Notes under the pieces: model-generated | Seen by the model: the letters and a program-made list of their open reading frames with translations, nothing else | What the model was told of the DNA's origin: nothing | Databases searched by the model: none | Shown here: in pieces, positions 43,974 to 64,000 of the stretch | How the letters are laid out: every line of letters begins with the position of its first letter | Numbering within the stretch: the first letter of the stretch is position 1 | Source: Calditrichales bacterium MX18-03 | GTDB taxonomy: Bacteria > Bacillota > Clostridia > Lutisporales > Lutisporaceae | NCBI GenBank assembly: GCA_021083345.1 | Contig: JAJGRE010000001.1 | Coordinates: forward strand, 868,001 to 932,000 | DNA length: 64,000 nt | Direction: 5' to 3' | Made by a program: the position numbers and the translations under genes

Positions 43974-43985
43974 GATAGGACGCGA

Positions 43986-44764: not shown

Positions 44765-44767
44765 CTC

Positions 44768-44796
44768 ATTATACCTTTTTTTAATATGCATGACAA
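44768..44796 (-). promoter_or_regulatory. Promoter of the FadR-type gene
   Basis: On the minus strand TTGTCA (44796-44791), 17-base spacer, TATAAT (44773-44768), starting upstream within the end region of the dehydrogenase transcript. Confidence 0.75.
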
Positions 44797-44819
44797 GCCG
44801 CGTCAGCGTCAAGAAAACA

Positions 44820-45797: not shown

Positions 45798-45826
45798 CGC
45801 ATTATTCTCCTAATCAAGTTATTTTC

Positions 45827-46489: not shown

Positions 46490-46540
46490 AATTATCTTCT
46501 CCTTTATTATAGCATAAATTCCAAAGGGCTAGCATGCCTG

Positions 46541-48043: not shown

Positions 48044-48059
48044 ATTATTCCTCCCTCCC

Positions 48060-48560
48060 TTACGGCAGCGGGATCATGGCCAGCTTGCCGAAACCGAATG
48101 CCAATACTGCCGTTGCAACTGCAGCAATGATGATAGAATGAATGACGCTTTTTTTTGTTTTTTTCTGGAATACCAGCATGGAAGTAAGGAGGTAAACAAA
48201 GGTCACGACTGCATAAAGCCGTCCGGGAAGCATCAGCAGCATGATGTATGCCGCCAGCAGGCCTATAACGATGCAGGCTACTTTGAATTCTCTTGTTTTC
48301 GTCATAAACAGCATGTTTTCCTTGGTGATAAAGTCAAGCCTTGCGCCGGCTCTTCTGGCGGTGAGAAATAAGGAATAGGCGCATAAGCCCAGGAAAAAGG
48401 TCACAATCATTGGAAAAAGCCCGGAAGATTCAAACCATTCTTTTCCTCTGCTTATTGTCCTGATGACCAGTTGAAGCGACATGATGAAGCCTGTAATGGA
48501 TATGCCCATTAATATCATGCTTGTTACCAGGTCTGCTTTCCTTAATGCTTTCTTTTCCAA
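48060..48560 (-). CDS. tctB: Tripartite tricarboxylate transporter small membrane subunit TctB
   Basis: About 166 residues with four hydrophobic segments, the TctB layout. A TTG at 48560 with GAGGG seven bases upstream is the best start; the ATG at 48578 has no ribosome site and the frame to 48608 runs into the hairpin. TctB sequences are poorly conserved, so the call rests on size, topology and position between TctC- and TctA-type genes. Confidence 0.82.
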   Translation of the reverse strand: MEKKALRKADLVTSMILMGISITGFIMSLQLVIRTISRGKEWFESSGLFPMIVTFFLGLCAYSLFLTARRAGARLDFITKENMLFMTKTREFKVACIVIGLLAAYIMLLMLPGRLYAVVTFVYLLTSMLVFQKKTKKSVIHSIIIAAVATAVLAFGFGKLAMIPLP

Positions 48561-48586
48561 AATCCTTCCCTCTTTCATTTTAATAG

Positions 48587-48618
48587 TGCATAAGGTGCGC
48601 AAGTGCACACCTTATGCA
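48587..48618 (-). terminator. Hairpin between tctC- and tctB-type genes
   Basis: A perfect 11-bp stem (48587-48597 with 48608-48618), ten-base loop, no long T-run. Likely an mRNA 3'-end stabiliser for the binding-protein message. Confidence 0.6.
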
Positions 48619-48642
48619 GGGCTGTTTCAGATATTATATACT

Positions 48643-49674
48643 TTACGGCTTTGGTATACCAGTATCTTCCGGACTACGCTCGGTCTTCTTCATCTCATAA
48701 AGCATCCAGCACATGGTGCTTTGCGCTTTTGAAGCAAGGGCTCTGGCCTCGTCCCCGGTCAGGTTGATGATGATGGCATACTGGGATTCTGCAAATTTCT
48801 TGATATCTTCGCTTTTCATGGCTGCATCGAAGGCTTCTTTCAGCTTGGCCTTGATATTATCCGGCGTATCCTTTGGAACCATGAAGCCTATAAACTGCTT
48901 GAGCGGCAGATATTTTTCCACGGAAGGTGCCTTCACCGTTACGGACTCAATTTTTCCTGCTCCGGGGAAATCATATCCTTCCTTGTCCATAACCGCCAGC
49001 GGAATCAGATCGCCTGACTTGATAAAGTCGGCAACTTCGCCTGCAGATGCAACCACCGCAGCCGTTTCACCTGAAACACAGGCCGTGATGGCCGGGCGGC
49101 TTCCGTCGTAAGTGGCTACACCCAGCGGAATGTTGCCATATGCCGGCAACAGATTGGCAAGCAGGAACCACAAGCCGCCATTGGTGCTGGCGATCTTGAT
49201 TTCGTTGGGCTTTGCACCTGCTGCATCGATCAGGCTCTGGAAATCCTTGTAGCCTGCATTCTTATTCACGAGAAGAAGTCCTGGTGAACCGCCGGCAATG
49301 TAGTATTCCCAATCCTTGGCAGTTTGGTTCATATCTTTTGTCATGACCGGAATCGTCAAGGGCGTTTCCGAGGTGCCTGCCAGTGCATATCCGTCATGAG
49401 GCTGTGTCCAGACATAATTGGTTCCGGTACCGCCAGGTCCTCCGCCGGTCATATTGTTTGCCAGAACCTTGACACCCAGTGTTTTTTCCATTTCGGCCGC
49501 AAGTGCACGGTTCCATACGTCTGTGCCGCCGCCTGCCCCGAAGGGGATGATCAGGTTGATAGGTCTTGACGGGTATTGCTCCACTTTTGCTCCTCCGGTG
49601 CTGCATGCCGAAAACACCATTGCTGCGCACAGGATCAATGCCACTACTGTCATAAGCCGAGTTTTTCTCATCAT
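48643..49674 (-). CDS. tctC: Tripartite tricarboxylate transporter binding lipoprotein TctC
   Basis: A 343-residue lipoprotein with lipobox VFSAC, then the TctC/Bug fold: YPSRPINLIIPFGAGGGTDV, NNMTGGGPGGTGTNYV, ALAGTSETPL. Bug proteins bind carboxylates through two conserved loops, the second of which is the GAGGGTD-type region. GGAGGAG precedes the ATG. It captures the substrate for the TctAB channel. Substrate unknown. Confidence 0.92.
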   Translation of the reverse strand: MMRKTRLMTVVALILCAAMVFSACSTGGAKVEQYPSRPINLIIPFGAGGGTDVWNRALAAEMEKTLGVKVLANNMTGGGPGGTGTNYVWTQPHDGYALAGTSETPLTIPVMTKDMNQTAKDWEYYIAGGSPGLLLVNKNAGYKDFQSLIDAAGAKPNEIKIASTNGGLWFLLANLLPAYGNIPLGVATYDGSRPAITACVSGETAAVVASAGEVADFIKSGDLIPLAVMDKEGYDFPGAGKIESVTVKAPSVEKYLPLKQFIGFMVPKDTPDNIKAKLKEAFDAAMKSEDIKKFAESQYAIIINLTGDEARALASKAQSTMCWMLYEMKKTERSPEDTGIPKP

Positions 49675-49729: not shown

Positions 49730-50659
49730 TCAAAGAATTTCTGCCGCCATTTTCAGGATCTGGGCGCTGTCCATTTCATACTTTTCCAACAGCTTGTAAT
49801 AGTCTCCCGATTCAGCAAACCGATCCCTCAAGCCGACCTTGCGCAGTACGCCGGCGCCCTTTTCGGCCACCACATCAGCCACTGCACTCCCAAGTCCGTT
49901 CAGGATGTTGTGATCTTCCACCGTAATGACCTTCCCCGTCTTGTTCAATGTCTTTTCCACCAGTTCGGTATCCAGCGGCTTCAGGGTATGCATATCGATC
50001 AGCTCCACGCTCACGCCGGCCTTTTCCAGTTTATCGGCGGCTTCCAGCGCCTGATGCAGCATATCCCCGATTGCAATGATGGAAATATCCCTCCCTTCTT
50101 TTATCAGCTTTCCTTTTCCGATTTCAAATGCTTCGTCTTCCCCGTAAAAAACCGGAATCGGGTCCCGGGTGAACCTTAAGTAAACCGGTCCATCATACGC
50201 TGCTGCTCTATCAACGAGCTTCATTGTTGCATTATAGTCTGCAGGCATAACCACTGTCATACCCGGTATACTTCTATAGATGCCCATATCTTCGATGGCC
50301 TGGTGGGTCACACCGTCGTTTCCCGGCGTCAGTCCCCCGTGACTGCAGGCAATCTTGACATTGAGATGTGGGTAGCATATGGATGTCCTGACCTGTTCAC
50401 ACATCCTCATGCTGCCGAAAACAGCATAGGTGCTGACAAATGGTATCTTGCCCATTGTAGCCAGCCCTGCAGCAAAGGTTGCCGCATTTTGCTCCGCAAT
50501 GCCGACATTGATATGCCGCTCCGGAAAGAGGGCCGAGAATTTCTTCGTTTTACAGGACTTGGATATATCGCAATCGATGACAAAAACCCTATCGTCTTTC
50601 TTTGCCAACTCGATGATGCCGTCTCCGAATCCGTCCCGTGTTGCAATCATTTTGCCCAT
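49730..50659 (-). CDS. Transketolase-like protein, C-terminal subunit
   Basis: A 309-residue protein containing the pyrimidine-binding and C-terminal transketolase domains: GIAEQNAATFAAGLATMGKI with the catalytic Glu, FVSTYAVF and SVELIDMHTLKPLD. It pairs with the N-terminal subunit one base upstream. Split transketolases often act on unusual substrates; AptAB, which cleaves apulose-4-phosphate, is one known pair. GGGAGGTGC precedes the ATG at 50659. Confidence 0.88.
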   Translation of the reverse strand: MGKMIATRDGFGDGIIELAKKDDRVFVIDCDISKSCKTKKFSALFPERHINVGIAEQNAATFAAGLATMGKIPFVSTYAVFGSMRMCEQVRTSICYPHLNVKIACSHGGLTPGNDGVTHQAIEDMGIYRSIPGMTVVMPADYNATMKLVDRAAAYDGPVYLRFTRDPIPVFYGEDEAFEIGKGKLIKEGRDISIIAIGDMLHQALEAADKLEKAGVSVELIDMHTLKPLDTELVEKTLNKTGKVITVEDHNILNGLGSAVADVVAEKGAGVLRKVGLRDRFAESGDYYKLLEKYEMDSAQILKMAAEIL

Positions 50660-50660
50660 C

Positions 50661-51488
50661 CTATGCACCTCCCAGTTCTTCCATGGCAGTAGTGTACTGA
50701 CATGCATCCGGGCATGCTCCATGCCAGTCGCATGCGTTTTCCATATAAGAGACCCCTTTGCCTTTGACTGTATTGGCTATGATGCACTTGGGTTTTCCGG
50801 AAGCATGCTTGACGTCTTCCAGTACCTTCAGTATTTCCCCGATGTTGTGACCGTCTATGCTGTAGACTTCCCAACCGAAGGCCAGGAATTTGTCGGCAAT
50901 GGGATGCACCGGCATGATCTCACAGGTATTGCCGTCAACCTGCAGGTTGTTGTCGTCAACAAATGCAATCAGATTATCCAACTTGTATTTGGCGGCCGTC
51001 ATGGCGGCTTCCCATACCTGTCCCTCCTGAAGCTCACCGTCTCCCAAAATGACATAAACCTTGCTGTCCAGACCGTCATATTTGGCACCGAATGCCATGC
51101 CGGCACCAGCCGATAAGCCTTGTCCCAGGGAACCGGACGTCATATCCAATCCCGGTACTTTCTTCATATCCGGATGGCCCTGCAAGATCGAACCCATCTT
51201 TCTCAAGGTATGGATTTCACTGAGATCATAAAAGCCTTTCATGGCCAACGCAGCATAGATCACCGGACAGGTATGCCCCTTTGACAGGATCACCCTGTCT
51301 CTTTCATTCCACTTCGGCTCACTTGGCCGGATGCGGAGCGCATCAAAATACAACACTGCAACAAAATCTGCCGCGGAAAGCGAGCCCCCCGGATGCCCCG
51401 ACTGTGCTTCGTGGATCATTGTGATGATATGCCGTCTTAATTCCCTGGCCTTATCCTCCAGGTACTTTACCTTTTCCAGGTATTCCAT
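50661..51488 (-). CDS. Transketolase-like protein, N-terminal subunit
   Basis: A 275-residue thiamine-diphosphate-binding subunit: AQSGHPGGSLSAAD, SKGHTCPVIYAALA, GSLGQGLSAGAGMAFGAKY and the TPP/Mg motif GDGELQEGQVWEAAM ending near VDDNN. It forms the active site with the following C-terminal subunit. GAAGGG precedes the tandem ATGs; 51488 is chosen. First gene of a transcript that likely includes the TctABC-type genes. Confidence 0.88.
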   Translation of the reverse strand: MEYLEKVKYLEDKARELRRHIITMIHEAQSGHPGGSLSAADFVAVLYFDALRIRPSEPKWNERDRVILSKGHTCPVIYAALAMKGFYDLSEIHTLRKMGSILQGHPDMKKVPGLDMTSGSLGQGLSAGAGMAFGAKYDGLDSKVYVILGDGELQEGQVWEAAMTAAKYKLDNLIAFVDDNNLQVDGNTCEIMPVHPIADKFLAFGWEVYSIDGHNIGEILKVLEDVKHASGKPKCIIANTVKGKGVSYMENACDWHGACPDACQYTTAMEELGGA

Positions 51489-51543
51489 CATAATCCCTTC
51501 TTTCACATCACATGTAATACGTAGGATGTCTTATGTATGATTA

Positions 51544-51549
51544 ATTATA
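51544..51549 (-). promoter_or_regulatory. Possible -10 of the transketolase transcript
   Basis: TATAAT on the minus strand (51549-51544) about 55 bases upstream of the first subunit. The expected -35 position reads GGAATT, so an activator may be needed. Confidence 0.35.
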
Positions 51550-51604
51550 TTCTCTATCCTTTTAAAAATTCCTTCTTCATGAAAAAATATTTTTGAAAAA
51601 TCGG

Positions 51605-51657
51605 AAAAAAATAAAACCGCATTGCACATCACAATACGGTGTATACACAATACGGTT
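51605..51657 (-). terminator. Terminator after the M24-like gene
   Basis: A 10-bp stem with one G-U pair (51615-51624 with 51648-51657), long loop holding a second ACAATACGGT copy, and TTTTATTTTTTT on the minus strand. Confidence 0.7.
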
Positions 51658-51672
51658 ACTATTCCATAAGGT

Positions 51673-52776
51673 CTACAAAACCATGATTTTCGGCAGCTTC
51701 ACATCCATGCCGTTGGCCCTGTACGTTTCACAAGGCCATATGCCGGATACCGACGGTACCTCGATTTCTCCGCCGGTGTTTAGTGTCAGTTCTTCTCCCT
51801 TTGCCCCTGAAATGGTTATAAACCAGTCAAAGGCTTGATTCTCCGTCACCACTTTGGATGCATCCATGCACAGCGTGGGATCGGATACCATATATCCCGT
51901 TATGCCGCCCTGGAAATGCTTGTGCCACTCGTTCTCATACCCCAGTTCCTTATACAGACGCTTCTGCTCCGACAGAATATCGGCGAACCTGATGCCGGGC
52001 TTTGACATGGCTATGGCAGCAGCCTCAATGCGGCAAACGGCATCATAACGCTTGGCAAGCTCAGCCGGCACAGCCCCGAAACACACCATGCGGGCCAGGT
52101 TTGAATGCAGGCCCCATTTCTTTACTGCCGGACTGATCAGGACGGTTTTCTCTATTCTCTTGCCGGTGGGACAGCAGTGCCTATATGCGGCTATCCGCTC
52201 GTCGCTGCCGATGATCATAACGGATACCGATACATTATGGCGTCCGTACTTCTCCCACAGCATACCCTGTACATCATATTCACGCATGCCCGGGTGCAGA
52301 CACGCTGCAGTTTCTGCAATAATCTGCTCCGACAGGACCGCCGCCTCACGATATCTCTCAATCTCATATCGGGTAAGCGGATAATGCAGCTTATAAAACA
52401 GATCCGGGGAATAATCCGCACCGGCTATCGGAATATCCGAAACGACACGCATACCGCGAACCAGCTCCAATACCTTCGCTTCTGCGCCGCCTTCAAACCA
52501 TTTTGTCACAACCGGCGTATAGCCCAGGTCTGCAGCCTCTTCATCCATCACTTTACACAAATCGGCCACCAAGGCCACCATAAACTTCTCACTTTTTGTC
52601 AGTACGATATAGCTGAATCCTGCCTCCGAGGAAAGAATCACTCTGTTTTCTCCGCCGCAGGTAAGCCAGGCAAAGTTATCTGCCCGGCCAATGACGGCTG
52701 CGTCCCAGTGGTTTTCTTCCAGACAAGCCAGGATCCTTTGTTCCTTGATCAGCGCTTCCGCTTTTCTGTCCTGCAT
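51673..52776 (-). CDS. M24-family (creatinase/prolidase-fold) protein lacking usual metal ligands
   Basis: A 367-residue protein with the creatinase N-terminal domain and an M24 'pita-bread' C-terminal domain. Where family members have the two metal-ligand Asp residues this one has LISP and SNLAR, and the F-x-I-E-P-type Glu is replaced in FDWFITISG; the HKHFQGGITGY segment replaces the usual GHGIG region. It should therefore not be a metal aminopeptidase; a creatinase-like metal-free hydrolase or a binding protein is more likely. AGGGTGAT precedes the ATG at 52776. It follows the RbsC-type gene and may act on the imported compound. Confidence 0.75.
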   Translation of the reverse strand: MQDRKAEALIKEQRILACLEENHWDAAVIGRADNFAWLTCGGENRVILSSEAGFSYIVLTKSEKFMVALVADLCKVMDEEAADLGYTPVVTKWFEGGAEAKVLELVRGMRVVSDIPIAGADYSPDLFYKLHYPLTRYEIERYREAAVLSEQIIAETAACLHPGMREYDVQGMLWEKYGRHNVSVSVMIIGSDERIAAYRHCCPTGKRIEKTVLISPAVKKWGLHSNLARMVCFGAVPAELAKRYDAVCRIEAAAIAMSKPGIRFADILSEQKRLYKELGYENEWHKHFQGGITGYMVSDPTLCMDASKVVTENQAFDWFITISGAKGEELTLNTGGEIEVPSVSGIWPCETYRANGMDVKLPKIMVL

Positions 52777-52786
52777 GCACATCACC

Positions 52787-53791
52787 CTATTCACAGCTTT
52801 TTGTAATATTGCGGCGCTCCAGCCGCTTTTCCAGCATGGTCCGGAGACTGTCGAGCAAAATGGCCAGCAGAATGATGCCCGCCGTAATAATAGGCTGCAT
52901 GTAGATATCTACCTGCAGATAGACAAGTCCTGCCTGGACTACCTGTATGAGCAGCGTCCCAATGACAACGCCGGGGAATACGCTTCCCACACCGCCGCTG
53001 AGGCTTGTGCCCCCTAGTACGGCAGCGGCTATTGCTTTGAACTCTTCTCCCTCGCCATAACCTGCATTGACAATGCCCAGCTGCGTTACCGAGATAATGC
53101 CGCCTATGGCAGCAAGTACACTGCACAGTATGTAGACAACTGCTATAATCTTTATATGGTCAATCCCTGCTTTGGCAGCAACCTCGCTATTGTAGCCTAC
53201 AGCATAGATATGCCGTCCCAGGGGGGTGCTCTTCAGCATCAGCTGAACCAGAATGATGATCACGATAAAGATGAAAACCGGAAGCGGTATGAACCCCAAA
53301 AGTCTCCGGGAAGCCATACCTGTAATGGCGGAAGGCCATTCAACAGCAACCGACTTCGTCAGCATCAGCGTCAGGCCCTTGAGCGCCACAAGGGTACTCA
53401 AGGTAACAATAAACGGCACCAGCTTCAGCTTGTTGATGCAGAAGGCGTGGAATGCACCCACCAATAAGCCGATGACAATGGCGCTGACGATTGCCAGCCA
53501 GATGGGAAACCCGAAGTTCCGTATCAAAAGCCCGGCACTGGAAGCGGACAGGAACATCAGTGAGCCTACCGAGAGGTCTATCCCGCCTGTCAGCAGCACC
53601 AGGGTCATACCGATAGCTACGATGCCGATGTAGGAGCTGGATGTGAGGATGTTCTCAATATTATCCCATTCAAAAAACACCGGCGTAATCAACCCGAATA
53701 CCACAAATACGAGGATGAAGAGCAGCAACGGTATGTTTTTCAGCAGTTTAAGCGCAAAGGCGCTCATATTGGCCTTATTATTGTTGTTCAC
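52787..53791 (-). CDS. RbsC-family sugar ABC permease, second copy
   Basis: A 334-residue permease with about nine helices, VLLTGGIDLSVGSLMFLSAS and AAVLGGTSLSGGVGSVFPG. It starts at GTG overlapping the ATPase stop (GTGA), with GAGGTG upstream. It is one of two RbsC-type permeases flanking a single ATPase gene, suggesting a heterodimeric channel. Confidence 0.88.
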   Translation of the reverse strand: MNNNNKANMSAFALKLLKNIPLLLFILVFVVFGLITPVFFEWDNIENILTSSSYIGIVAIGMTLVLLTGGIDLSVGSLMFLSASSAGLLIRNFGFPIWLAIVSAIVIGLLVGAFHAFCINKLKLVPFIVTLSTLVALKGLTLMLTKSVAVEWPSAITGMASRRLLGFIPLPVFIFIVIIILVQLMLKSTPLGRHIYAVGYNSEVAAKAGIDHIKIIAVVYILCSVLAAIGGIISVTQLGIVNAGYGEGEEFKAIAAAVLGGTSLSGGVGSVFPGVVIGTLLIQVVQAGLVYLQVDIYMQPIITAGIILLAILLDSLRTMLEKRLERRNITKSCE

Positions 53792-55335
53792 TGCTGCACC
53801 TCACTTTCATGACTTGCATTTTTGTTGAAGGCACACTGCCCGAAGGCATATCTCAAAATGGTCTCCCTGTCGAACTCATCCTGACCGACACAGCCAGTTA
53901 TTTCGCCCCTGCTCATGACATAGATCCTGTCACAGATACCCATCAGTTCCTCGATTTCGGAGGATACCACCAGTACGGCAGCCCCGTCGCATGCCAGATT
54001 GTTGATAACGGAGTACACCTCAAACTTTGCGCCTACATCTATCCCTCTGGTCGGTTCATCCACGATAAAAATCTCCGGGCTTGTCATCAACCACTTGCCG
54101 ATGACCACCTTCTGCTGGTTTCCCCCGCTGAGGCTTTTGGCTGCGCTTTTTTCGATAGCACCTGATTTGATCCTGAGCCGCTGTGAAATGGCTGCTGCTT
54201 TGTCGGCTATCCTGCTCTTGTCAATAAATCGGAGGAATCTGGAAGCCAGATTCGGCATGGCAACAAAGCTGAGGTTCTCCAGCACTGTCATTTCCAGCAT
54301 CAGGCCTTCTTCCCGCCGGTTCTCCGTAACAAAGGCCACGCCTTGCTTTATGGACTGTACAGCCGTATTTTTTGACTTTAACTTTCCTTTGATTTTGATT
54401 TCTCCGGACTCAAAGGAATCCAGCCCGAAAAATATGTGCATCAGCTCAGTACGGCCCGATCCCATCAATCCGAAGATACCCACCACCTCGCCCTCATGGG
54501 CGTGCAGGTTGATATTGCTGACGATTCCTTTTTTTGTTATGTTGACCAGTTCTACTTTTTTCTCATCGGATACGACGTTTTTACGTTCCGGATAAATATG
54601 CTTCATATCCCGTCCAATCATGTTAAAAATCATGGAATCGATGTTAAAGCTGGACGTAGTACCTTCCGCCGTAACGTTTCCATCCCTCAGGACCACGATT
54701 CTGTCGGTTAATTTCTGAATATCGGACAAGATATGGGAAATATAGATGATCGACCGACCTTTCTGCTTCAGATCCCCGATGATCTTGAAAAGCCGTTCTG
54801 TTTCTCTCGCTGTAAGCGATGTCGTGGGTTCATCGAAAATGATAACTTGTGCATCCATGCTGAAGGCTTTTGCAATCTCCACAAGCTGGCGTTCGCCCTG
54901 GGAAAGCTTTTCTATTAGCGTATCCGGCGGACATTGCAGCCCTACTGCCTTTATAGCCTCGTGTGCCAGGCGGTTCATTTCCCTCTTGTTGATGTATGGA
55001 ATTTTGTTGATTTTCGGAAAGTCAATCAAAAAGATATTTTCAGCCACTGTCAGGTTGTTGCAAAGGTTAAGCTCCTGATGGATGAATGCGATTTTGCTGG
55101 CGTTGGCATCCATGGTGTTTTTGGGTTTGTACGGCTGATCGTACAAAAGCATGTCACCGCTGTCCGGCTGCAAAACCCCTCCGACAATGTTCATCAAAGT
55201 AGACTTTCCTGCGCCGTTTTCTCCGATGATTCCCAGGACCTCGCCTTTTTCAACACGGATAGACACGTCGGAAAGAGCTTTGATGCCGTAAAATGCCTTA
55301 GATATGTTTCTAAGTGCGAGTATGTTCTCCCCCAT
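53788..55335 (-). CDS. RbsA-family sugar ABC ATPase
   Basis: A 515-residue tandem-ABC protein: [16 protein letters not shown] in domain one, VIIFDEPTTSLTARE, then [16 protein letters not shown] and [14 protein letters not shown] in domain two. It energises import with the two flanking permeases. CGGAGGCG precedes the ATG at 55335. Confidence 0.92.
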   Translation of the reverse strand: MGENILALRNISKAFYGIKALSDVSIRVEKGEVLGIIGENGAGKSTLMNIVGGVLQPDSGDMLLYDQPYKPKNTMDANASKIAFIHQELNLCNNLTVAENIFLIDFPKINKIPYINKREMNRLAHEAIKAVGLQCPPDTLIEKLSQGERQLVEIAKAFSMDAQVIIFDEPTTSLTARETERLFKIIGDLKQKGRSIIYISHILSDIQKLTDRIVVLRDGNVTAEGTTSSFNIDSMIFNMIGRDMKHIYPERKNVVSDEKKVELVNITKKGIVSNINLHAHEGEVVGIFGLMGSGRTELMHIFFGLDSFESGEIKIKGKLKSKNTAVQSIKQGVAFVTENRREEGLMLEMTVLENLSFVAMPNLASRFLRFIDKSRIADKAAAISQRLRIKSGAIEKSAAKSLSGGNQQKVVIGKWLMTSPEIFIVDEPTRGIDVGAKFEVYSVINNLACDGAAVLVVSSEIEELMGICDRIYVMSRGEITGCVGQDEFDRETILRYAFGQCAFNKNASHESEVQQ

Positions 55336-55358
55336 ATAAAACGCCTCCGTTTCTTTCT

Positions 55359-56444
55359 CTACATGACGTTTGTCCGGCGTTTGATCTCAATTCTGAGTAC
55401 GTCAAACGCAACAGCGATGATAATGACAATCCCCTTTGCCATATCAACGACATAAAAGGGAAGCTTCATCATATTCAGCGCATTTGCCAGTATGACAAAA
55501 AACAGGGCGCCGAACAGTGTCCACGAAACTTTTCCTTTACCTCCGAACAGTGAAGTGCCACCGATGACAGCTGCGCCTACTACATCCATCAGCATGGTTT
55601 GCCCCAGTGTAGGCCTGCCGGCGATCAACCTGGCAGAAAGCAGGACAGAACCCATCGCCGCACAAAAACCGCTGAAGGCATATGCGAATATGATGACCTT
55701 CCCAGTCGGGACGCCTATCACCGCTGAAGCTTTCGGATTGGAGCCGACGAGGTACAGCCACTTCCCCAGAACCGTCTTGTTCAGCAGTATGGCGGCCAGG
55801 ACAGCAACGACAATGGCAAAAATCATGGAATAGGGAATAATCTTCATGATGCTGCCGCTTCCGATGGCCTTGAAGTTTTTGGGAAGTCCTATGATGTTTT
55901 CCGACTTGGTCAGATAAATCGCCAGTGCACTGAACAGCATCTGGCTTACCAGCGTGACCATGAACGGCGGCATCTTGAACTTGTGTATGAAGAAGCCGTT
56001 GAAGCAGCCAATGCCGACACCAATGAGGATCATCACGAATATAGCGGCGTAAATAGCTGCAGGCTCTCCTGCCAGCGGCCCCCCGGATTCCGTCAGGAAC
56101 CAGCCCCATAAAGGACTTTTCTCAAAAAGAGTGGGATCCGCTTTGCTGGTCATGATGGCTGCCCCCACGACACTGGTTATGGCTATGATGGAAGTTTGGG
56201 AAAGGTCTATCCCGGCTACGATCAGGACCACCGTTTGTCCGATGGCGATGATGAAAAGCGGCCACAAATTGGACATGATATTGTTGATATTGGCCCGGGA
56301 TGCGATATGCGGCGTAACCGGCATAAGCGATACGAAAATCAGCAGACAGAAAAAAACAATAAAATACTCTGATAATAACACTTTCACAAAGAGATCTTTT
56401 ACATCGGATTTGTTCCTCTCGGTAGGCGAGCCCTTTAAAAACAC
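55359..56444 (-). CDS. RbsC-family sugar ABC permease, first copy
   Basis: A 361-residue permease with IGQTVVLIVAGIDLSQTS and VGAAVIGGTSLFGGKGKV loops. Compared with its partner it has an extra segment after the second helices (about residues 100-130). A GTG at 56444 with GGGGGAG six bases upstream is the likely start; a GTG at 56495 has no ribosome site. Confidence 0.85.
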   Translation of the reverse strand: MFLKGSPTERNKSDVKDLFVKVLLSEYFIVFFCLLIFVSLMPVTPHIASRANINNIMSNLWPLFIIAIGQTVVLIVAGIDLSQTSIIAITSVVGAAIMTSKADPTLFEKSPLWGWFLTESGGPLAGEPAAIYAAIFVMILIGVGIGCFNGFFIHKFKMPPFMVTLVSQMLFSALAIYLTKSENIIGLPKNFKAIGSGSIMKIIPYSMIFAIVVAVLAAILLNKTVLGKWLYLVGSNPKASAVIGVPTGKVIIFAYAFSGFCAAMGSVLLSARLIAGRPTLGQTMLMDVVGAAVIGGTSLFGGKGKVSWTLFGALFFVILANALNMMKLPFYVVDMAKGIVIIIAVAFDVLRIEIKRRTNVM

Positions 56445-56534
56445 TTGATTCTCCCCCGTTCCTTTTTTACATTCAGAAAATACACCCTGCGGCACGGTGA
56501 GCCTTATGGAATTCTGCCGAACCGGTATTTATTT

Positions 56535-56569
56535 ATTCGGGGAAGGAACTCAGAATTCCTTCCCCGAAT
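56535..56569 (-). terminator. Hairpin after the sugar-binding protein gene
   Basis: A perfect 14-bp stem (56535-56548 with 56556-56569) and seven-base loop; short AT-rich tail but no long T-run. Likely partial terminator or RNA stabiliser. Confidence 0.65.
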
Positions 56570-56610
56570 ATTGATACTGCTATTCAATTAATATCTGAAC
56601 CGATTGCTTC

Positions 56611-57687
56611 TTAGAGTTCTCCCTTTTCCTGTCTCAGCTTGTTGCCCCACATTCTCATCTTCATTTCGCCCATGTTGGCCTGAGTCAGAGCGAAGCCCGG
56701 GTCATCCATCCACTTTTCCGGTGTCTTTTCGCCTTTTTCTATGGCTTCCAGCATACCGGTCAGGATCAGCTCAGCTTCATAATAAAGGTCCTGTACGGCT
56801 GTGGCATCGACATAACCTTCGTCCATCAGCTTGCCGGCCGTCATATCGCCGTCGACAGCGCCCATGATGATATGGTTGGGATCACCGATCTTCTGCCATT
56901 TGCCCAAGGGTTCGAGAACACTTTTTATAACCGGATAGAGGAAGTCGGAACCGCAGAAGAGAAGTCCTACATCTTTATTGGCTGCCATTGCACTCTTCAG
57001 ATTGGCAAGGGCGGTGTTGGAGTCCCATTTGGTGGGTACTTCGATATACTCGGTGAAGATGTCCTTGTTCTTTTCATAGACATTCTTGAAGCCCTGGTAT
57101 CTGCCGACTGCATTGGGATCGCCGAGGTCTCCCACCATGACAAGGGGTTTTACCTTCTTGCCGGTCTTCTCGAATACCTTGCGCGCTTCCAGAGCCATAT
57201 GCTCCATCGCCTTCGCGGAAATGGTCACATTGTCTGCTACTGCGACAAGGGCCTTGGCATCTTTATTGGAAGGAGGTCTGTTGAATACGCCGAAGGGAAT
57301 ACCGGCGCTGTTGCAGGCTTCACCGATTGCAACGGCACTTTCCCCGTCCTGAGGAATAATGATGATTCCATCAACCTTCTGAGCTATGGCATCGTTAACC
57401 TGTTCAAGCTGCTTGTTGGCGTCCTCATTGGCATTGAATTCGATTACTTCGATCCCTTTTGCCTTAAGAGTCTCTACGATAGCCTTATGTCCTGCCACCC
57501 AGAATTCTGTTTCCAAGTCCTGGTAAGCAAAAGCAATCTTGAGTTTCTTTTCAGCTGCCGGCTGCTCGGCTGCCGCGGGTGTCGCTTCAGGTGCCGGAGC
57601 TGCTGCCGGTTCCGGTTTCGGCGCGCATGCTGTTACCAACACCGCAAACATAACGACAAGCATAACAATTGATAGTGCTCTCTTCAT
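56611..57687 (-). CDS. Sugar-binding lipoprotein of the RbsABC-like transporter
   Basis: A 358-residue lipoprotein: signal with lipobox LVTAC, a Pro/Ala-rich linker (PAAAPAPEATPAAAEQPAAE), then a type 1 periplasmic-binding fold (KIAFAYQDLETEFWVAGHKA, VDGIIIIPQDGESAVAIGEA, GIPFGVFNRPPSN). AGGAGGAG precedes the ATG. It opens the transporter operon behind a good promoter. The ligand may be any pentose-like sugar or polyol. Confidence 0.9.
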   Translation of the reverse strand: MKRALSIVMLVVMFAVLVTACAPKPEPAAAPAPEATPAAAEQPAAEKKLKIAFAYQDLETEFWVAGHKAIVETLKAKGIEVIEFNANEDANKQLEQVNDAIAQKVDGIIIIPQDGESAVAIGEACNSAGIPFGVFNRPPSNKDAKALVAVADNVTISAKAMEHMALEARKVFEKTGKKVKPLVMVGDLGDPNAVGRYQGFKNVYEKNKDIFTEYIEVPTKWDSNTALANLKSAMAANKDVGLLFCGSDFLYPVIKSVLEPLGKWQKIGDPNHIIMGAVDGDMTAGKLMDEGYVDATAVQDLYYEAELILTGMLEAIEKGEKTPEKWMDDPGFALTQANMGEMKMRMWGNKLRQEKGEL

Positions 57688-57719
57688 TTTCTCTCCTCCT
57701 AATTATAATAAGTAATCTG

Positions 57720-57734
57720 AACACATAATGTGTT
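57720..57734. promoter_or_regulatory. Palindrome downstream of the transporter promoter
   Basis: AACACATAATGTGTT, a perfect 15-base palindrome between the -10 and the start codon. It is a good candidate for RpiR-regulator binding; no second copy was found in the window. Confidence 0.5.
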
Positions 57735-57744
57735 TTCATATTTT

Positions 57745-57773
57745 ATTATATATTATAAAAACTGAAAATGCAA
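57745..57773 (-). promoter_or_regulatory. Promoter of the RbsABC-like transporter operon
   Basis: On the minus strand TTGCAT (57773-57768), 17-base spacer, TATAAT (57750-57745). The rest of the gap up to the RpiR-type gene (57774-57966) holds nothing recognised. Confidence 0.7.
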
Positions 57774-57966
57774 TACTGATTTATGAGTTTTTTTCCAATA
57801 CACCCATTCAAAACCTACCAGGTCTTGCCACATGCGCGTCCAGCCATTGCGTTCGTTCATTCGAGCTTATTCTGTGTTTTTTTACTATTTTCCTTCGCCT
57901 TTTTTGCTTAAAGCCTTTACTTTAATTATCATTTTCATTGTTTAATGTTGAAAACGATAGTGTTTT

Positions 57967-58851
57967 TTACAGTTTATTGTTCTCCAAGGCCGCATTAGCC
58001 AGATGCATCGGTTTGGTCATGATTTCGGCTTTCGCCAGTATCAGGCTGACAAAAAGGCATTCCACAATACACAGTTCCGTCACCCGTTTAGACATAACCT
58101 CCCCTACGATATGCTCAGTGAAAGCTGCCGTCAGCAATACGATATCTGAGTTTTTTGCCAAGGGAGACACCGGGTAGTTTGTAATACAGATGACAGTAAT
58201 GCCGGCCTTCTTGGAGTATTTAACCAGCTCAACCATGTTCTTTGTCCTGCCCGAGTGGGAAATGACCAGCAGCACATCGCCTGCACGCATCTGTGATACA
58301 GCTATGAGAAGCTGATCGATATCGTCAGAGGTGTGCGCTCTGATACCGGCCCGGAAGAGCTTCTGGAAACCCGACTTGGCTACATTGGCAGCGTCGCCCG
58401 CACCGGCCAGCACGATCATGCCCGCATTGCAAAGCGCTTCAACCGCAAGCTGGTATTGCTCCCGGTCCAGTATCCTGAGGGTATCGGAAAGTGCCCGCAA
58501 TGATGCGTCAAACACTTTTTGGATAACCGTATCATAGCTGTCCTCAGAAGTCAGCCCTGAATAAAGCTGCGTCGTATGCAGCCCGCTGTTTTCTTTGCCG
58601 ATCATCGCTTTAAGCTCCTGGAATCCTGCATAACCCAGCCTTTTTGAAAGCCTGACGTAAGTAGCCTCGCTGCAGTCCGCCTCCCTTGCAGCATCCACAA
58701 TGGACGCAGTCCCTATGAACTCCGGCCTGTTTATCAGCAGATCGGCAGCTTTTTTTTCGGCTGTCTTCAGCGAGTCATATACAGCCTGAAGCCGTACAAG
58801 GCATTCTCTAGACAAGCTCTCTGTGTTTCTGCTCTCAATGTCGAGCGGCAT
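57967..58851 (-). CDS. RpiR/MurR-family transcriptional regulator
   Basis: A 294-residue protein: N-terminal HTH_6 (AADLLINRPEFIGTASIVDA, ATYVRLSKRLGYAGFQELK) and a C-terminal SIS phosphosugar-binding domain (MIVLAGAGDAANVAKSGFQK, VISHSGRTKNMVELVKYSKK). Such regulators respond to sugar phosphates, fitting the kinase gene just upstream. The ATG at 58851 with GGGGTG upstream is chosen over a GTG at 58860. Confidence 0.88.
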   Translation of the reverse strand: MPLDIESRNTESLSRECLVRLQAVYDSLKTAEKKAADLLINRPEFIGTASIVDAAREADCSEATYVRLSKRLGYAGFQELKAMIGKENSGLHTTQLYSGLTSEDSYDTVIQKVFDASLRALSDTLRILDREQYQLAVEALCNAGMIVLAGAGDAANVAKSGFQKLFRAGIRAHTSDDIDQLLIAVSQMRAGDVLLVISHSGRTKNMVELVKYSKKAGITVICITNYPVSPLAKNSDIVLLTAAFTEHIVGEVMSKRVTELCIVECLFVSLILAKAEIMTKPMHLANAALENNKL

Positions 58852-58864
58852 TTCAATCACCCCA

Positions 58865-60370
58865 TCACAATTTCTTGTTTATAGCTTTAAGTGTATCATA
58901 TACATCTCTGTAAATGAAATACTTTTCCTCGTACAAGGTCTTCATGACCGGATCAGGCAGGTATTCGTCCTTAATGGACACCGAACAGCCGACCCCCTCG
59001 TCTACCGAGGAATAAGCCCCCGCTGCAGTACCGGCAAGGATTGCCGCACCCAGGCATGCCGCTTCCCTGACCTTCAGGGTGGAGACCTTGCAGCCGGTCA
59101 CATCGGCTTTGATCTGCAGCCAGACGGGTGAACGGGCACCACCGCCTACGCATCGAAGGTCATGGATGGCGATGCCAGCCTCCTTCATCCGCTCGATGTT
59201 GATCCGCAGCTCATAAGTCAGGCTGTCCAAAATGCCCTTTGCGATATCATGCCGTGTGGTTGCCATGGTCAACCCCAGCATGGCGCCTTTGGATTCCAGG
59301 TCGCACCAAGGTGTACCGCTGCCGTTGAAATGGGGCAGCACCAGCACCGGAGATGGTCCGGGCGCCGTTTTGCCCACGATGAGGTCATAAGCGCTGATCT
59401 CCTTTTCTTCAGCCTGTAATAGCTCCGCCGTTCCCAGATTGTCCCGGTACCACTTCAAAAGCAGACCGCCGATATGGTTCAGTGAAAAGGTGAAATACAT
59501 GTCTCGCTTTGTATGGCAATAGCAAGGGTAAAAGCTATGATACATCAGATCGGACAGCCTTGGTTCATTGAAAGCTGACGAGACCACCTCCGCCGTACCA
59601 TGGGAATCGATGGCTATATTCTCTCGGATAACGCCTGCTCCCAGTGCCGCACAGGTCTGGTCATGCCCCCCCGCTACCAGCAGCATTCCCTTTGGCAGTC
59701 CAAGCTCCTCAGCAAGGCTGGGGTTTATTTCGCCCACCACTTCGCCGGATTGAACAGGTATTGAGAGGCTTTCTTCCGCGATCCCCACCGTCTCAAGTAT
59801 TTTGCCGGACCATTTCTTTTTCGCCAGCTCAAAGGCCATGGTGCGGGATGCCATGGTGTAATCAATAACCGGCGGCGCACCGAGCTTGGAAAGTATGAAA
59901 TCGGCATAGGTCATGAACTTGTAGGTTTTGCCGAAAATCTCAGGTTCATTGTCCTTGAGCCACATGATCTTCATCAATGAATTAAGCGGATGCGGCCTCA
60001 TTCCGGTCATTTCAAAAAGCCGCTTCCCGCCGAACAGTGCTTCGCAGCGTTCAGCCTGGCTGAAGGGGCGGTAATCCATACCCAGGAGCGCATGGTACAA
60101 CGGTCTGCAGTTCCCGTCTACCGGAATAATGGCATCGCCTTGCACCGAAAGGCTCAGCGCCTTTATATCACCGGTACCGCTTTCCGACACCGCCTGTCGG
60201 ATAACCTCCCTTGTCAGCTGCCATACCAGCCGGGAATCCTGTTCCGCCTGCCCCGGGCTTTCACAAATCATGCCGTATTCCCGAAAGCCGTATCCTTTGA
60301 TATTTCCCTCCAAATCGAAAACCACCGCTTTTGTACCGGTCGTTCCCACATCAAGACCCAATAGGTGCAC
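58865..60370 (-). CDS. FGGY-family carbohydrate kinase
   Basis: A 501-residue kinase: HLLGLDVGTTGTKAVVFD (phosphate 1), NSLMKIMWLKDNEPEIF, VAGGHDQTCAALGAG, DSHGTAEVVSS, and CVGGGARSPVWLQIKADVTG at the end (adenosine region). It is nearer the xylulokinase branch than to glycerol kinase, but specificity cannot be assigned. A GTG at 60370 with GGGAGG nine bases upstream is favoured over 60379. With the isomerase-like and split transketolase genes it could make a ketose phosphate. Confidence 0.85.
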   Translation of the reverse strand: MHLLGLDVGTTGTKAVVFDLEGNIKGYGFREYGMICESPGQAEQDSRLVWQLTREVIRQAVSESGTGDIKALSLSVQGDAIIPVDGNCRPLYHALLGMDYRPFSQAERCEALFGGKRLFEMTGMRPHPLNSLMKIMWLKDNEPEIFGKTYKFMTYADFILSKLGAPPVIDYTMASRTMAFELAKKKWSGKILETVGIAEESLSIPVQSGEVVGEINPSLAEELGLPKGMLLVAGGHDQTCAALGAGVIRENIAIDSHGTAEVVSSAFNEPRLSDLMYHSFYPCYCHTKRDMYFTFSLNHIGGLLLKWYRDNLGTAELLQAEEKEISAYDLIVGKTAPGPSPVLVLPHFNGSGTPWCDLESKGAMLGLTMATTRHDIAKGILDSLTYELRINIERMKEAGIAIHDLRCVGGGARSPVWLQIKADVTGCKVSTLKVREAACLGAAILAGTAAGAYSSVDEGVGCSVSIKDEYLPDPVMKTLYEEKYFIYRDVYDTLKAINKKL

Positions 60371-60536
60371 GTAAGCCACCCTCCCTCATGCATCTGTAGA
60401 TTTCCCATGAAAGTATGGGATATAAAACCGACAAAGGCGGCACGGCTTTCTTCCGGTATTGCACCGCCAAGAACCGCCGCGTCGCCTGGTTTGCCATTTT
60501 TTTATCAAATCCGCCCGGTCATTTTGAGCCTGGAGA

Positions 60537-61952
60537 CTATTCCCCACGGATCCACGCTTTGACATCCGCTTCGATATCGTCGTAGAAATCAGGCTTTAAG
60601 CCGGGAATGTACTTGCAAGCCTCATAGATTGCAGGCAGCACATTACCGTGGATTCCCACACAGTGATGGACATAGGGTCCTGTTACCAGTTTATCCTCCA
60701 GCCTGGTCCAGTTATCTACCTCGATCCAGAGATAGGTGCCTATGGTCTGGGGACCTTCAATGCCCTTTGCAGTACCCAAAAGGATGGAATAATTACCGTT
60801 GTCCCCGTCAAAGCGCAGGAGTGAAATCTCACCGCCCCTGATCTCGGCAATAACGGAACCCGGACAATGCTCTTCAAAGGCAAAGGGTCTCCCGAATTTG
60901 GCCTTTCCCTTAGCCAGGGATATAGGCCAGGGACCGCAGTGCTGCAGCAGTTCTCCGTTTTCGTTTTCCGGGTGCCGCACCGACCAGTCCGCAAAGAAGG
61001 GAGGTGTCTTCCCCATGGCTGCTGCCTGTGCCATTACAGCGGTTATAGCGCCATGTATGTCGGTCTCGCATACCACAGGAATCCCCTCGTCGGTCAGGAG
61101 CGAGTTGGCCATACAGGGCATGACATGCAGTGCCTGCTGAAGAGCGCTCCAGCACTGTATCGCTACTGCGCTGCAGCCCAACTCCTGAGCATAGCGTTTC
61201 ATAGCGGTCTTAAGTGCAGCAAGGCGCTTTACCGCATCAGCCGGAACGCAGATCTCGGTATTTTCCTCCAAAAACTTCACGGTTGACTGGACTTCCGCAT
61301 CGTTCTCGGCTTCCAGCTTCAGGATCCTGTCGGTAAACTCCGTCATGGTAATGGGACGCAGCTGGATTCCAAACCGCTCCAGCAGCTCACCCTCATTGCA
61401 CATCATGGTCCAGAAGTCAGCCGGACGGGTGGATATCTGCAAAATGCGGAGCTTCTTGAATTCTTTGACGACATTGGCTGCAGCCAGGAAATTCATAAGT
61501 CCACGCTCAAAAGCCTCATCCTCCAGACGGCAGTTAGGCAGGTAAGTAAAGGGCAGGTTGAAGCGCCGGAAAACCTTCCCGGTAGCAAACAGGCCGCACT
61601 GCGTATCCCGCAGCCTCGACCCGTCTGCCAGGGGCGCCTCGTCCCGGGGTCCCCAGAGAAGGATGGGCAGTTTCAACTCATTTGCCACTTTGCAGACCAA
61701 GTCTTCAGTGCCGAAATTGCAGTGGGGGAAAAATACTGCATTGACCTTCGCCGCCTTGAACTTCTCCACGACCTTCTCAACATCACTTTCCGCATGAAGC
61801 AGGCCTTCCTCGTTTATATCATCCATATCAACAAAATCAATACCCAGTGCCTTAAGCTTCTCCTGTGTAAGCTTCTTGTACTTCAGTGCATCCTCCTTGC
61901 TGAAAATGAATCTTCTCGTTGGTGCCAGTCCGAGTTTGATCTTATGATCCAT
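60537..61952 (-). CDS. L-fucose/L-arabinose isomerase-family protein
   Basis: A 471-residue protein of the FucI/AraA fold: NAVFFPHCNFGTEDLVCKVA early, LPILLWGPRDEAPLADGSRL, AIQCWSALQQALHVMPCMAN, VVCETDIHGAITAVMAQAAA with a likely catalytic Glu, and LTxx-HH segments near the end. The divergent family, often called fucose-isomerase-like, includes enzymes of unknown substrate. AAGGAGGGG precedes the ATG. A 166-base gap to the kinase gene holds only a small TCCCAT/ATGGGA hairpin. Confidence 0.8.
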   Translation of the reverse strand: MDHKIKLGLAPTRRFIFSKEDALKYKKLTQEKLKALGIDFVDMDDINEEGLLHAESDVEKVVEKFKAAKVNAVFFPHCNFGTEDLVCKVANELKLPILLWGPRDEAPLADGSRLRDTQCGLFATGKVFRRFNLPFTYLPNCRLEDEAFERGLMNFLAAANVVKEFKKLRILQISTRPADFWTMMCNEGELLERFGIQLRPITMTEFTDRILKLEAENDAEVQSTVKFLEENTEICVPADAVKRLAALKTAMKRYAQELGCSAVAIQCWSALQQALHVMPCMANSLLTDEGIPVVCETDIHGAITAVMAQAAAMGKTPPFFADWSVRHPENENGELLQHCGPWPISLAKGKAKFGRPFAFEEHCPGSVIAEIRGGEISLLRFDGDNGNYSILLGTAKGIEGPQTIGTYLWIEVDNWTRLEDKLVTGPYVHHCVGIHGNVLPAIYEACKYIPGLKPDFYDDIEADVKAWIRGE

Positions 61953-62000
61953 TTTACCCCTCCTTACATACTTTCAAATTAGCCTACATGTCTATTATAG

Positions 62001-63287
62001 TTAACAGGTCATATCCTGCATACGTCTAAGCTGCAGCAAAACTGAATTATTATCAAGTTCCACCATATCATAAGTGATGATCTCATCCTTCTTCACATCA
62101 CAGAGGAGCTTCGCTCCCTTTGCAAGGCCTACCGGAAGCATTTTTCCTTCCTTGGCGACTTCATAAAGGTCGATGCTGGCACGGTAGCAGAATTCGCCAA
62201 TGCTGTCCAGCACCTCTCCGGCCTTGAGGTCGCGCTTAGCCACGGTGATGCATTCAGAGGTGAGTCTCTTTTTGGGGTGTGCGGTGGATTCGCCGTATAA
62301 AACCGCTTGGGCTACCGTTATTGGTGTTTCTATACTGCAAAGATGATAAGGTCTCAGCAGGAGGTAATTGGGTCCGGGACCCATATCCCGCTGCAGAAGG
62401 CCGTCCTTGAGCCGCTCCTGGTCTGTGGAAACGATAACAAACACGCCGGGGTTTATGTCCCCTATGCCGTAATCCACAACACCCTCACGGTTGAGTATGC
62501 CGCCCTGATCCTTCCGGCAGAATACCTTGGTCAAGTCTTTTATATTGCATTTGGGGCCATGCATGCCGCGTATGTCCGGCACCAAACCCGTGGCGTTGGA
62601 AACGGCAGCCATCTCAATCATGGTCTTTGAGCCGTCCACAAACTCACAAAGCATCTTGGCGCTCATTTGACGGGCATCCGCCTTTGCCTGCAGGTCTGCA
62701 GGCGTGGCATAGATGTCAAGGGGGTTATTCTTTCCCTTGCCTACCGCTACGACCTTCAAGCCCAGTGCGGTAGCAAAACGGTAAACTTCTACGATGGACC
62801 CAGGTTCATCGCCGGCCGTCAGGGAGTATACCACACCGGCATTCTCAGCCATCTGCCGCAGTATAGGTCCCACCGTTACATCGCACTCCACATTCATCAT
62901 GACAATATGCTTTTTGTTGTTGATGCAATCAAGGCTGATTCTGGCTCCCATTTCAGGAGCTCCGGTGGCATCTATAACGACCTGGATGGTACTGGTCAGG
63001 ACTGCCAGCTTATAGTTGGTCGTCGCCACTTTCCTGCCTGCACGGACAGCTTCTTCCGCCACAGCAAGATCGTTGGTCTCAACGATTTCGCCTTCATAAC
63101 CCGAAAGCTTGTAGGCGCTGACTGCGGTTTCGGTTCTCAGGTCAACGACGACGTCGACCTCCATACCTGCCATGCCTGCAATCTGAGCCACAATATCTGT
63201 ACCCATCTGTCCGGCTCCCACCAAGCCTACACGGATCGGCTTGCCCTCATCCTGCAATTTTTTCAGCTTCATATCTATTTCATACAT
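62001..63287 (-). CDS. Rossmann-fold oxidoreductase with C-terminal SAF domain
   Basis: A 428-residue protein: N-terminal NAD(P) fold with IRVGLVGAGQMGTDIVAQIA, a homoserine-dehydrogenase-like middle (VVIDATGAPEMGARISLD, GDEPGSIVEVYRFATALG), and a C-terminal SAF-like domain (TVAKRDLKAGEVLDSIGEFC). Such proteins occur in operons for sugar acids and tetritols; the reaction is not established for most. AGGAGGG precedes the ATG. It lies between the isomerase-like and alcohol-dehydrogenase genes. Confidence 0.82.
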   Translation of the reverse strand: MYEIDMKLKKLQDEGKPIRVGLVGAGQMGTDIVAQIAGMAGMEVDVVVDLRTETAVSAYKLSGYEGEIVETNDLAVAEEAVRAGRKVATTNYKLAVLTSTIQVVIDATGAPEMGARISLDCINNKKHIVMMNVECDVTVGPILRQMAENAGVVYSLTAGDEPGSIVEVYRFATALGLKVVAVGKGKNNPLDIYATPADLQAKADARQMSAKMLCEFVDGSKTMIEMAAVSNATGLVPDIRGMHGPKCNIKDLTKVFCRKDQGGILNREGVVDYGIGDINPGVFVIVSTDQERLKDGLLQRDMGPGPNYLLLRPYHLCSIETPITVAQAVLYGESTAHPKKRLTSECITVAKRDLKAGEVLDSIGEFCYRASIDLYEVAKEGKMLPVGLAKGAKLLCDVKKDEIITYDMVELDNNSVLLQLRRMQDMTC

Positions 63288-63316
63288 CTAAGACACCCTC
63301 CTGTTTTCATATCTGT

Positions 63317-64000
63317 TTATGCCCATGGCTTAACAACGACGCGCAGTGCCTTCCGCTGCTCGGCATACGCTATTCCCTCCGGAATCCCATCAAGCCCCAC
63401 AGCTTTGGTCACATATTTCTTTGCGGCGATTTTTCCTTCGGCAATCATCTGCACGGCCCGCTTCAAGCCTGCTGCCGGATAAGAAAATGCACCTGTTACC
63501 GATATTTCATTATAATGGATGAGATTGCTGTCCAGAGTCGTCATGGGATTGTTTCTGTTGACACCGCCGAACAGGATCACTTTTCCCCGTTTTCTGACCA
63601 TCTCGACTGCCTGCTGCTGGATGGTGGTGACCGGAGCGGCACATATGACAATATCGGCGCCAATTCCCTCGGTTGCCTGCAGCACGGCTTTGACCGGATC
63701 CTCCTTGTAAGCATCGATCATGATGTCTGGCGCAAAGGTTGCAGCCATCTCCAAGCGGGAGTGTCCGCTCAGGATAATTTTGGAGGCACCTCTTGCACGG
63801 GCAACCTCTATATGAAGACAGCCGATGGGCCCGTCGCCCATGATGACCACCGTATCTCCCGGGCTGACATTGTTTTGCTCCTGGCATGCTATAACCGAGG
63901 ATGCCGGTTCTGCCATCGCAGCTTCATCAAAACTTAAATGCCCGGGGATGGGCTCTATAAACCCGTGCTGCACCACTTCGGGCGGCAGGTAGATATATTG
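63317..64000 (-). CDS. Zinc-type alcohol/polyol dehydrogenase, N-terminus outside the window
   Basis: The frame is open through the right edge; 227 residues are visible. They include SFDEAAMAEPASSVIACQ, GDTVVIMGDGPIGCLHIEVA for NAD binding, and GKVILFGGVNRNN, as in sorbitol- or threonine-dehydrogenase-like MDRs. The catalytic zinc site would lie in the missing N-terminal part. Transcribed first in the operon leading to the SAF oxidoreductase, with a 29-base gap. It probably oxidises a secondary hydroxyl of the sugar or polyol. Confidence 0.85.
   Translation of the reverse strand, partial: QYIYLPPEVVQHGFIEPIPGHLSFDEAAMAEPASSVIACQEQNNVSPGDTVVIMGDGPIGCLHIEVARARGASKIILSGHSRLEMAATFAPDIMIDAYKEDPVKAVLQATEGIGADIVICAAPVTTIQQQAVEMVRKRGKVILFGGVNRNNPMTTLDSNLIHYNEISVTGAFSYPAAGLKRAVQMIAEGKIAAKKYVTKAVGLDGIPEGIAYAEQRKALRVVVKPWA

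Follow-up and report, generated by a model that had tools for sequence, protein, structure and literature searches.

Gene content and organization of the locus

The window analyzed here is a stretch of 64,000 nucleotides from Calditrichales bacterium MX18-03 (contig JAJGRE010000001.1, positions 868,001 to 932,000 of the forward strand), and the genes at its distal end very probably form an operon for the catabolism of an unusual sugar. Such an operon had been proposed in a preliminary description of the sequence, which placed its genes on one strand; the operon is now linked, through its isomerase, to D-apiose metabolism. All genes named in that description were confirmed as full-length open reading frames on the minus strand, the sole exception being a zinc-dependent medium-chain dehydrogenase/reductase of the alcohol dehydrogenase type (Zn-ADH), which is truncated at the window edge. 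Genome sequence past the edge completes this gene (L004:1318-2364, 348 aa; L and G numbers are our labels for loci and genomes) and contains, 9 bp upstream and outside the window, a KpsF/GutQ-like SIS isomerase gene (L004:2374-3012).

In order of transcription, from high to low coordinates, the genes encode the SIS isomerase, Zn-ADH, a SAF-domain protein of the DXR-II family (DXR-like, DRL), an aldose-ketose isomerase, an FGGY kinase and an RpiR-type regulator, followed after a gap of 279 bp by the binding protein, permease, double ATPase and second permease of a CUT2 importer, an M24-like protein and a split transketolase (Table 1). Within each half of the operon, on either side of the 279-bp gap, intergenic gaps do not exceed 166 bp and several genes overlap. 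The CUT2/Rbs-type importer spans 52787-57687, and its two permeases differ from each other. The best NCBIfam models for Zn-ADH were IolM and Tdh, with scores far under cut-off; the gene adjoins DRL and SIS in related loci as well.

Table 1. Features of the operon in order of transcription, with window coordinates (ThDP, thiamine diphosphate)
Feature	Position	Strand	Basis and related loci
Zn-dependent dehydrogenase (Zn-ADH)	63317..64000, runs past window	-	PF08240/PF00107
DRL/DXR-II family oxidoisomerase, SAF domain	62001..63287	-	PF21135, 213 bits
Aldose-ketose isomerase, L-arabinose/L-fucose isomerase fold, candidate apiose-type	60537..61952	-	predicted structure and kin operons
FGGY carbohydrate kinase, xylulokinase-like	58865..60379	-	PF00370/PF02782
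RpiR-type phosphosugar-sensing regulator	57967..58860	-	PF01418 and PF01380; adjoins FGGY in kin loci
CUT2 sugar-binding lipoprotein	56611..57687	-	PF13407
CUT2 permease A	55359..56495	-	PF02653; 45% to L122
CUT2 double ATPase	53788..55335	-	PF00005 x2; 53% to L122
CUT2 permease B	52787..53791	-	PF02653; 41-51% to L120/L122/L123
M24 'pita-bread' protein	51673..52794	-	PF00557, 61 bits
Split transketolase, N-terminal (ThDP) half	50661..51506	-	PF00456
Split transketolase, C-terminal half	49730..50722	-	PF02779 and PF02780

The SAF-domain protein

DXR converts 1-deoxy-D-xylulose 5-phosphate (DXP) to 2-C-methyl-D-erythritol 4-phosphate (MEP) by rearrangement and reduction. The protein listed in the preliminary description as a Rossmann-SAF oxidoreductase is present, although its identity as a DXR-II-type oxidoisomerase had been missed; by sequence, it is a DRL protein. 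It matched Brucella DXR-II (3upl/3upy) with 398 bits in a phmmer search. A tree of 36 sequences grouped it with the DRLs of related cassettes in a single clade, and this clade joined Brucella DXR-II (3upy) with support of 99/92. Using the list of DXR-II residues from PMC3847144, we found the substrate-site residues K191, K193, T229, H250, R320 and Y322 to be kept, as well as G121, Y161, E174 and F178; together these include the substrate-binding residues and the two functional-divergence positions named there. The window protein thus resembles Brucella-type DXR-II (PMC3847144) in its clade, in having a SAF domain and in every substrate-site residue checked, but differs in genomic role, its gene lying in an operon for sugar import and the host having ordinary DXR (DXR-I) as well. 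As DXR-I was present in all nine cassette genomes tested, the host included, DRL is not needed for isoprenoids in these genomes, and the host copy is probably not there for that purpose.

The isomerase and its relatives

The isomerase had no Pfam match and no match by sequence in the PDB. Its AlphaFold model (pLDDT 87.8) matched L-arabinose isomerase in Foldseek (E 4e-25, TM about 0.8) and L-fucose isomerase more weakly, from which an arabinose/fucose isomerase-superfamily fold is predicted. Four residues (E296, D322, H338, H430) were invariant in 20 isomerase sequences, and their spacing, by which alone they were mapped, fits metal ligands (Glu, Glu/Asp, His, His).

When the genome collection was scanned for relatives of the isomerase, 80 loci were obtained, 75 of them with a readable isomerase. 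A split transketolase was found in 61 of these 75, an AplK-like FGGY kinase as well in 56 of the 61, and in 30 of the 56 also a binding protein resembling that of the E. coli D-apiose cluster; apiosidase-family genes (PF13204) occurred in several. The nearest relatives (59-78% identity) are encoded in operons that pair a split transketolase with an AplK-type kinase and in some cases include an apiosidase. The window isomerase is 78% identical to that of C. magnum and was placed on the AptAB-operon side of the tree (support 100). Although itself encoded in a DRL cassette, it grouped apart from the isomerases of the other DRL cassettes, which we read as interchangeability of two isomerase types within the cassette; alternatively, the two may have separate histories. 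The closely related isomerase of G024 (82%) is uninformative on linkage, since the contig breaks off inside the gene; no DRL was found in that assembly.

The non-oxidative D-apiose pathway comprises the isomerase ApsI, the kinase AplK and the split transketolase AptAB (Carter et al. 2018, as cited in PMC13001218). Because the kin operons are of apiose type and E. coli strains with an aplK-aptAB cluster grow on D-apiose (PMC13001218), D-apiose is the likely substrate of the isomerase family, as judged from these relatives, and the published ApsI may belong to this family. A sulfoquinovose isomerase (SftI) that acts in a sulfo-transketolase route was rejected as an identity, the SftI model scoring 122 bits against a cut-off of 700. 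Three loci with more remote relatives (L044, L045 and L046; 51-53%) carry in addition a XylB-like FGGY kinase, a class II fructose-bisphosphate-type aldolase, a xylose-isomerase-like TIM barrel and a GFO/IDH oxidoreductase, and represent another uncharacterised sugar cluster.

A conserved cassette in Clostridia

Genome-neighbourhood comparison of the SAF protein and the isomerase, as suggested in the preliminary description, placed isomerase relatives in D-apiose-type operons and showed that seven further loci from Clostridia have all or part of the order SIS-ADH-DRL-isomerase-FGGY(-RpiR): a Ruminococcus metagenome-assembled genome (MAG) (L120), Lachnospiraceae CE91-St61 (L121), Blautia schinkii (L122), Dorea sp. 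D27 (L123), an Oscillospiraceae MAG (L124), Eisenbergiella tayi (L127) and a Clostridiales MAG (L186). This recurrence indicates an association of the genes beyond chance. Neither AptAB nor an AplK-type kinase was found within 9 kb of the cassette in any of the seven. In B. schinkii the cassette is preceded by the same importer as in the window, with an M24 gene directly before it, and in E. tayi an apiosidase-family gene adjoins the cassette.

A class II aldolase and a second FGGY kinase lie beside the cassette in L120-L123 (for example L121:13901-18698). The same flank contains a Fucose_iso_C-type isomerase in L121 and L123 and an M24 gene in L120, L121 and L123, and is perhaps a second sugar branch.

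Kinase, transketolase, importer and M24 protein

The FGGY kinase scored 299 bits against TIGR01312, under the cut-off of 380. It was 44-73% identical to the cassette kinases. E. coli AplK matched it at 25% identity, as did the GlpK-like kinases of Clostridia apiose-type operons, which are themselves about 40% identical to AplK. The N-terminal transketolase half grouped at 100/100 with generic, non-Apt split transketolases, apart from AptA; this group included a second pair of the host that lies beside E1/E2/E3 genes, the L102 pair and the second L183 pair. The C-terminal half was 48% identical to its L102 counterpart and 33% to E. coli AptB. Identity of the split transketolase with AptAB, to which the preliminary description had likened it, was ruled out by this tree placement, and the XylB-like kinase does not bear the analogy out either. 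Since the transketolase is non-Apt and the kinase not of AplK type, the locus is not, as far as orthology goes, the known apiose transketolase pathway. The nearest host relative of the window transketolase is encoded on contig C12 (L203:2832-10744), together with a LipA-like gene, E2, E3 and a fused E1 (823 aa).

The binding protein was 46% identical to that of L122 and 21-24% identical to those of apiose-type operons. Its fold was uninformative as to ligand, with 17-26% identity to many sugar-binding proteins.

In the M24 protein both Asp metal ligands of PepQ are replaced, by Ser and Asn, and the His is kept, as also in L120, L121 and L123; the two-metal Asp ligands of M24 metallopeptidases are therefore not in place. 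In several loci an M24 gene has a module for carbon-carbon cleavage close by, namely the split transketolase in the window, a class II aldolase in L121 and E1/E2 in L202.

Proposed route

The gene content, the protein families with their folds and clades, and the conservation of linkage were established directly, and from these we infer every substrate and every reaction direction. On the strength of position and homology, and with somewhat less than even confidence, we tentatively propose that the operon serves the breakdown of an apiose-class sugar or polyol with a branched C5 chain. The ABC importer would bring in apiitol, an apiose derivative or apiose, and the isomerase would interconvert branched aldose and ketose, D-apiose and apulose. 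Zn-ADH would then reduce apulose to the branched pentitol apiitol; as apulose is achiral, the enzyme could set the configuration needed. Phosphorylation by the FGGY kinase would give 2-C-(hydroxymethyl)-D-erythritol 4-phosphate, the analogue of MEP whose CH3 group is replaced by CH2OH, and DRL, running the DXR reaction in reverse, would oxidise and rearrange this to linear D-xylulose 5-phosphate. This activity is proposed because the same exchange of CH3 for CH2OH in DXP and MEP yields exactly this pair of compounds. The SIS isomerase and split transketolase would pass xylulose 5-phosphate to the pentose phosphate pathway, with RpiR sensing a phosphosugar, and a transketolase of generic type is what would be expected if xylulose 5-phosphate is its substrate. 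Formation of D-apiitol 1-phosphate by direct reduction of D-apiose was rejected, as by our own reasoning it has the wrong configuration for a DXR-type enzyme, and the route was for this reason drawn through achiral apulose.

Every cassette enzyme would in this way be given a sensible step. The exact sequence from apiose through apulose, apiitol and apiitol 4-phosphate to xylulose 5-phosphate by means of a DXR-II oxidoisomerase is nevertheless rather unlikely to be correct in full; that DRL is catabolic and acts on a substrate of the apiose-like branched sugar class is a much firmer prediction.

Several observations weigh against this interpretation. The cassette occurs without an adjoining isomerase in L086 and L087, the host genome has no apiosidase, and the FGGY kinase is xylulokinase-like (XylB-like) and not polyol-kinase-like. 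The equilibrium of DXR favours the branched product, so that catabolism would depend on later steps drawing the reaction in the opposite direction. Five large cassette genomes carry elsewhere a second isomerase copy, of apiose-operon type, and plain D-apiose would then be handled twice. The binding pocket departs from that of apiose-operon proteins, with ..ETEFW.., ..NR.. and ..CGSD.. in place of ..NPFF.. (NPAF in two), ..DR.. and ..CGND..; the roles of these residues are presumed from RbsB. Because of the second isomerase copies, the substrate of the cassette may be another, related one, and the pocket agrees with this.

DXR-II in other Bacillota

Among 26 DRL loci outside the cassette, 19 contained glucitol-type phosphotransferase system (PTS) genes, and 13 contained E1 alpha and beta genes of the pyruvate dehydrogenase (PDH)/acetoin dehydrogenase family, accompanied in 12 of the 13 by E2. 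In one such operon (L113:6828-15069) DXR-II is encoded with a glucitol PTS, a SorC-type regulator and E1alpha/E1beta/E2, and the same type was seen in L088-L090, L095, L096, L098, L099, L101, L103 and L108. These operons suggest catabolism of 2-C-methylerythritol by way of MEP and DXP to acetyl-CoA and glyceraldehyde 3-phosphate. A search of the literature found no report of bacterial growth on methylerythritol. The genome carrying L113 (G631) had no match to DXR-I or IspG. When 20 DRL genomes without the cassette were scanned, no DXR-I was seen in 10, nine of which had IspG, and in these nine DRL probably also serves isoprenoid synthesis. Functional DXR-II has been described in bacteria with neither the MEP nor the mevalonate (MVA) pathway, such as Finegoldia (PMC3847144).

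Alternative explanations

An unlikely alternative is that the ordinary D-apiose transketolase pathway operates here in variant form: the isomerase would make apulose, the XylB-like FGGY protein would be the apulose kinase and the split transketolase would cleave apulose 4-phosphate, with DRL, ADH and SIS serving another substrate. The kinship of the isomerase to apiose-type operons and the presence of FGGY kinase and split transketolase at the same locus agree with this. The transketolase falls outside the AptA groups, however, the kinase has just 25% identity to AplK, and the related cassettes pair DRL with the isomerase and have no AptAB within 9 kb. If the substrate were instead a linear sugar, either an unusual aldose or a deoxy sugar, which we consider improbable, the isomerase and XylB-like kinase would supply a ketose 5-phosphate for the transketolase and DRL would be a plain dehydrogenase. 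This would account for xylulokinase as the best match of the FGGY kinase and for the arabinose/fucose isomerase fold, but not for the DXR-II-specific residues kept in DRL or for apiose-type operons as the source of the nearest isomerase relatives.

Catabolism of 2-C-methyl-D-erythritol (or 1-deoxy-D-xylulose) accounts for DRL as well as the branched-sugar interpretation does, although overall we regard it as quite unlikely. FGGY kinase would make MEP, DRL would make DXP, and a ThDP enzyme would split the latter, leaving the isomerase and ADH to side substrates. In its favour are the true DXR-II residues of DRL and its grouping with the Brucella enzyme, the potential conversion of MEP to acetyl-CoA and glyceraldehyde 3-phosphate by the glucitol-PTS and E1/E2 operons, the cassette of G479 near E1/E2 genes, and the formation of DXP by PDH E1 mutants (PMC3424233). 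The apiose-type isomerase and ADH would be left unexplained, and the window has a generic split transketolase instead of E1/E2; transfer of an acetyl unit from DXP by a transketolase would be no useful catabolic step. It is highly improbable that DRL serves isoprenoid synthesis as a spare DXR and lies in a sugar operon by accident: it probably is the DXR of some Bacillota with IspG and no detected DXR-I, but all nine cassette genomes have DXR-I and DRL is conserved within a sugar cassette.

Adjacent genes

A block of genes at 41651-49674, which begins 55 bp after the transketolase, encodes a TctCBA tricarboxylate transporter, an Asp/Glu-racemase-like protein, a glyoxylate-reductase-like dehydrogenase, GntR, a Mem_trans permease and an L-threonine dehydrogenase. 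The tricarboxylate transporter and hydroxyacid enzymes that the preliminary description had joined to the pathway are thus present, but do not belong to the conserved system. No counterpart of the block was noticed in related loci, and for this reason, together with the adjacent GntR gene, transporter, racemase and hydroxyacid dehydrogenase were rejected as pathway members. The block probably forms a unit of its own, for hydroxyacids or amino acids. As the 55-bp gap showed no clear terminator, read-through into the block is possible.

Comparison with known systems

In the D-apionate oxidoisomerase route the oxidoisomerase reportedly acts on the acid and is said not to be of the DXR-II family. 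The likeness to the branched-sugar route proposed here is that a branch carbon is moved by an oxidoisomerase in apiose breakdown; unlike in that route, no RuBisCO-like protein was present among the annotated genes here. With the ApsI/AplK/AptAB pathway the window shares an isomerase of AptAB-operon type, an FGGY-family kinase, a split transketolase and a CUT2 importer. It differs in its XylB-like kinase, non-AptAB transketolase, altered binding pocket and two permeases, and has DRL, Zn-ADH, SIS and M24 in addition. The expectation that the enzyme set would depart from the characterised apiose route was therefore borne out, with DRL, Zn-ADH and SIS present and kinase and transketolase non-orthologous. 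The D-apiose cluster of E. coli ST131/STc14 (PMC13001218) likewise combines an FGGY kinase, split transketolase, CUT2 importer and oxidoreductases, but has two short-chain dehydrogenases/reductases and no isomerase where the window has DXR-II, Zn-ADH and an isomerase.

Significance

Plants contain the branched sugar apiose in their cell walls (rhamnogalacturonan-II) and in flavonoid glycosides. The locus, from a gut-type Clostridia genome, is likely to represent a new variant of branched-sugar catabolism, and is probably an operon, uncharacterised before, for the use of apiose or a closely related plant sugar with five carbons and a branched chain. From the homologies described, an enzyme otherwise known solely from isoprenoid synthesis seems to have been recruited to straighten a branched carbon chain. 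If so, gut Clostridia would use apiose or its relatives in a second way, through a rearrangement hitherto tied to isoprenoid synthesis. DXR-II would also be catabolic in bacteria such as Finegoldia with neither the MEP nor the MVA pathway, which bears on its presence there. Taken together with the glucitol-PTS and E1/E2 operons, DXR-II of Bacillota would then be largely a chain-straightening catabolic enzyme for apiitol and methylerythritol, and not only an enzyme of isoprenoid synthesis.

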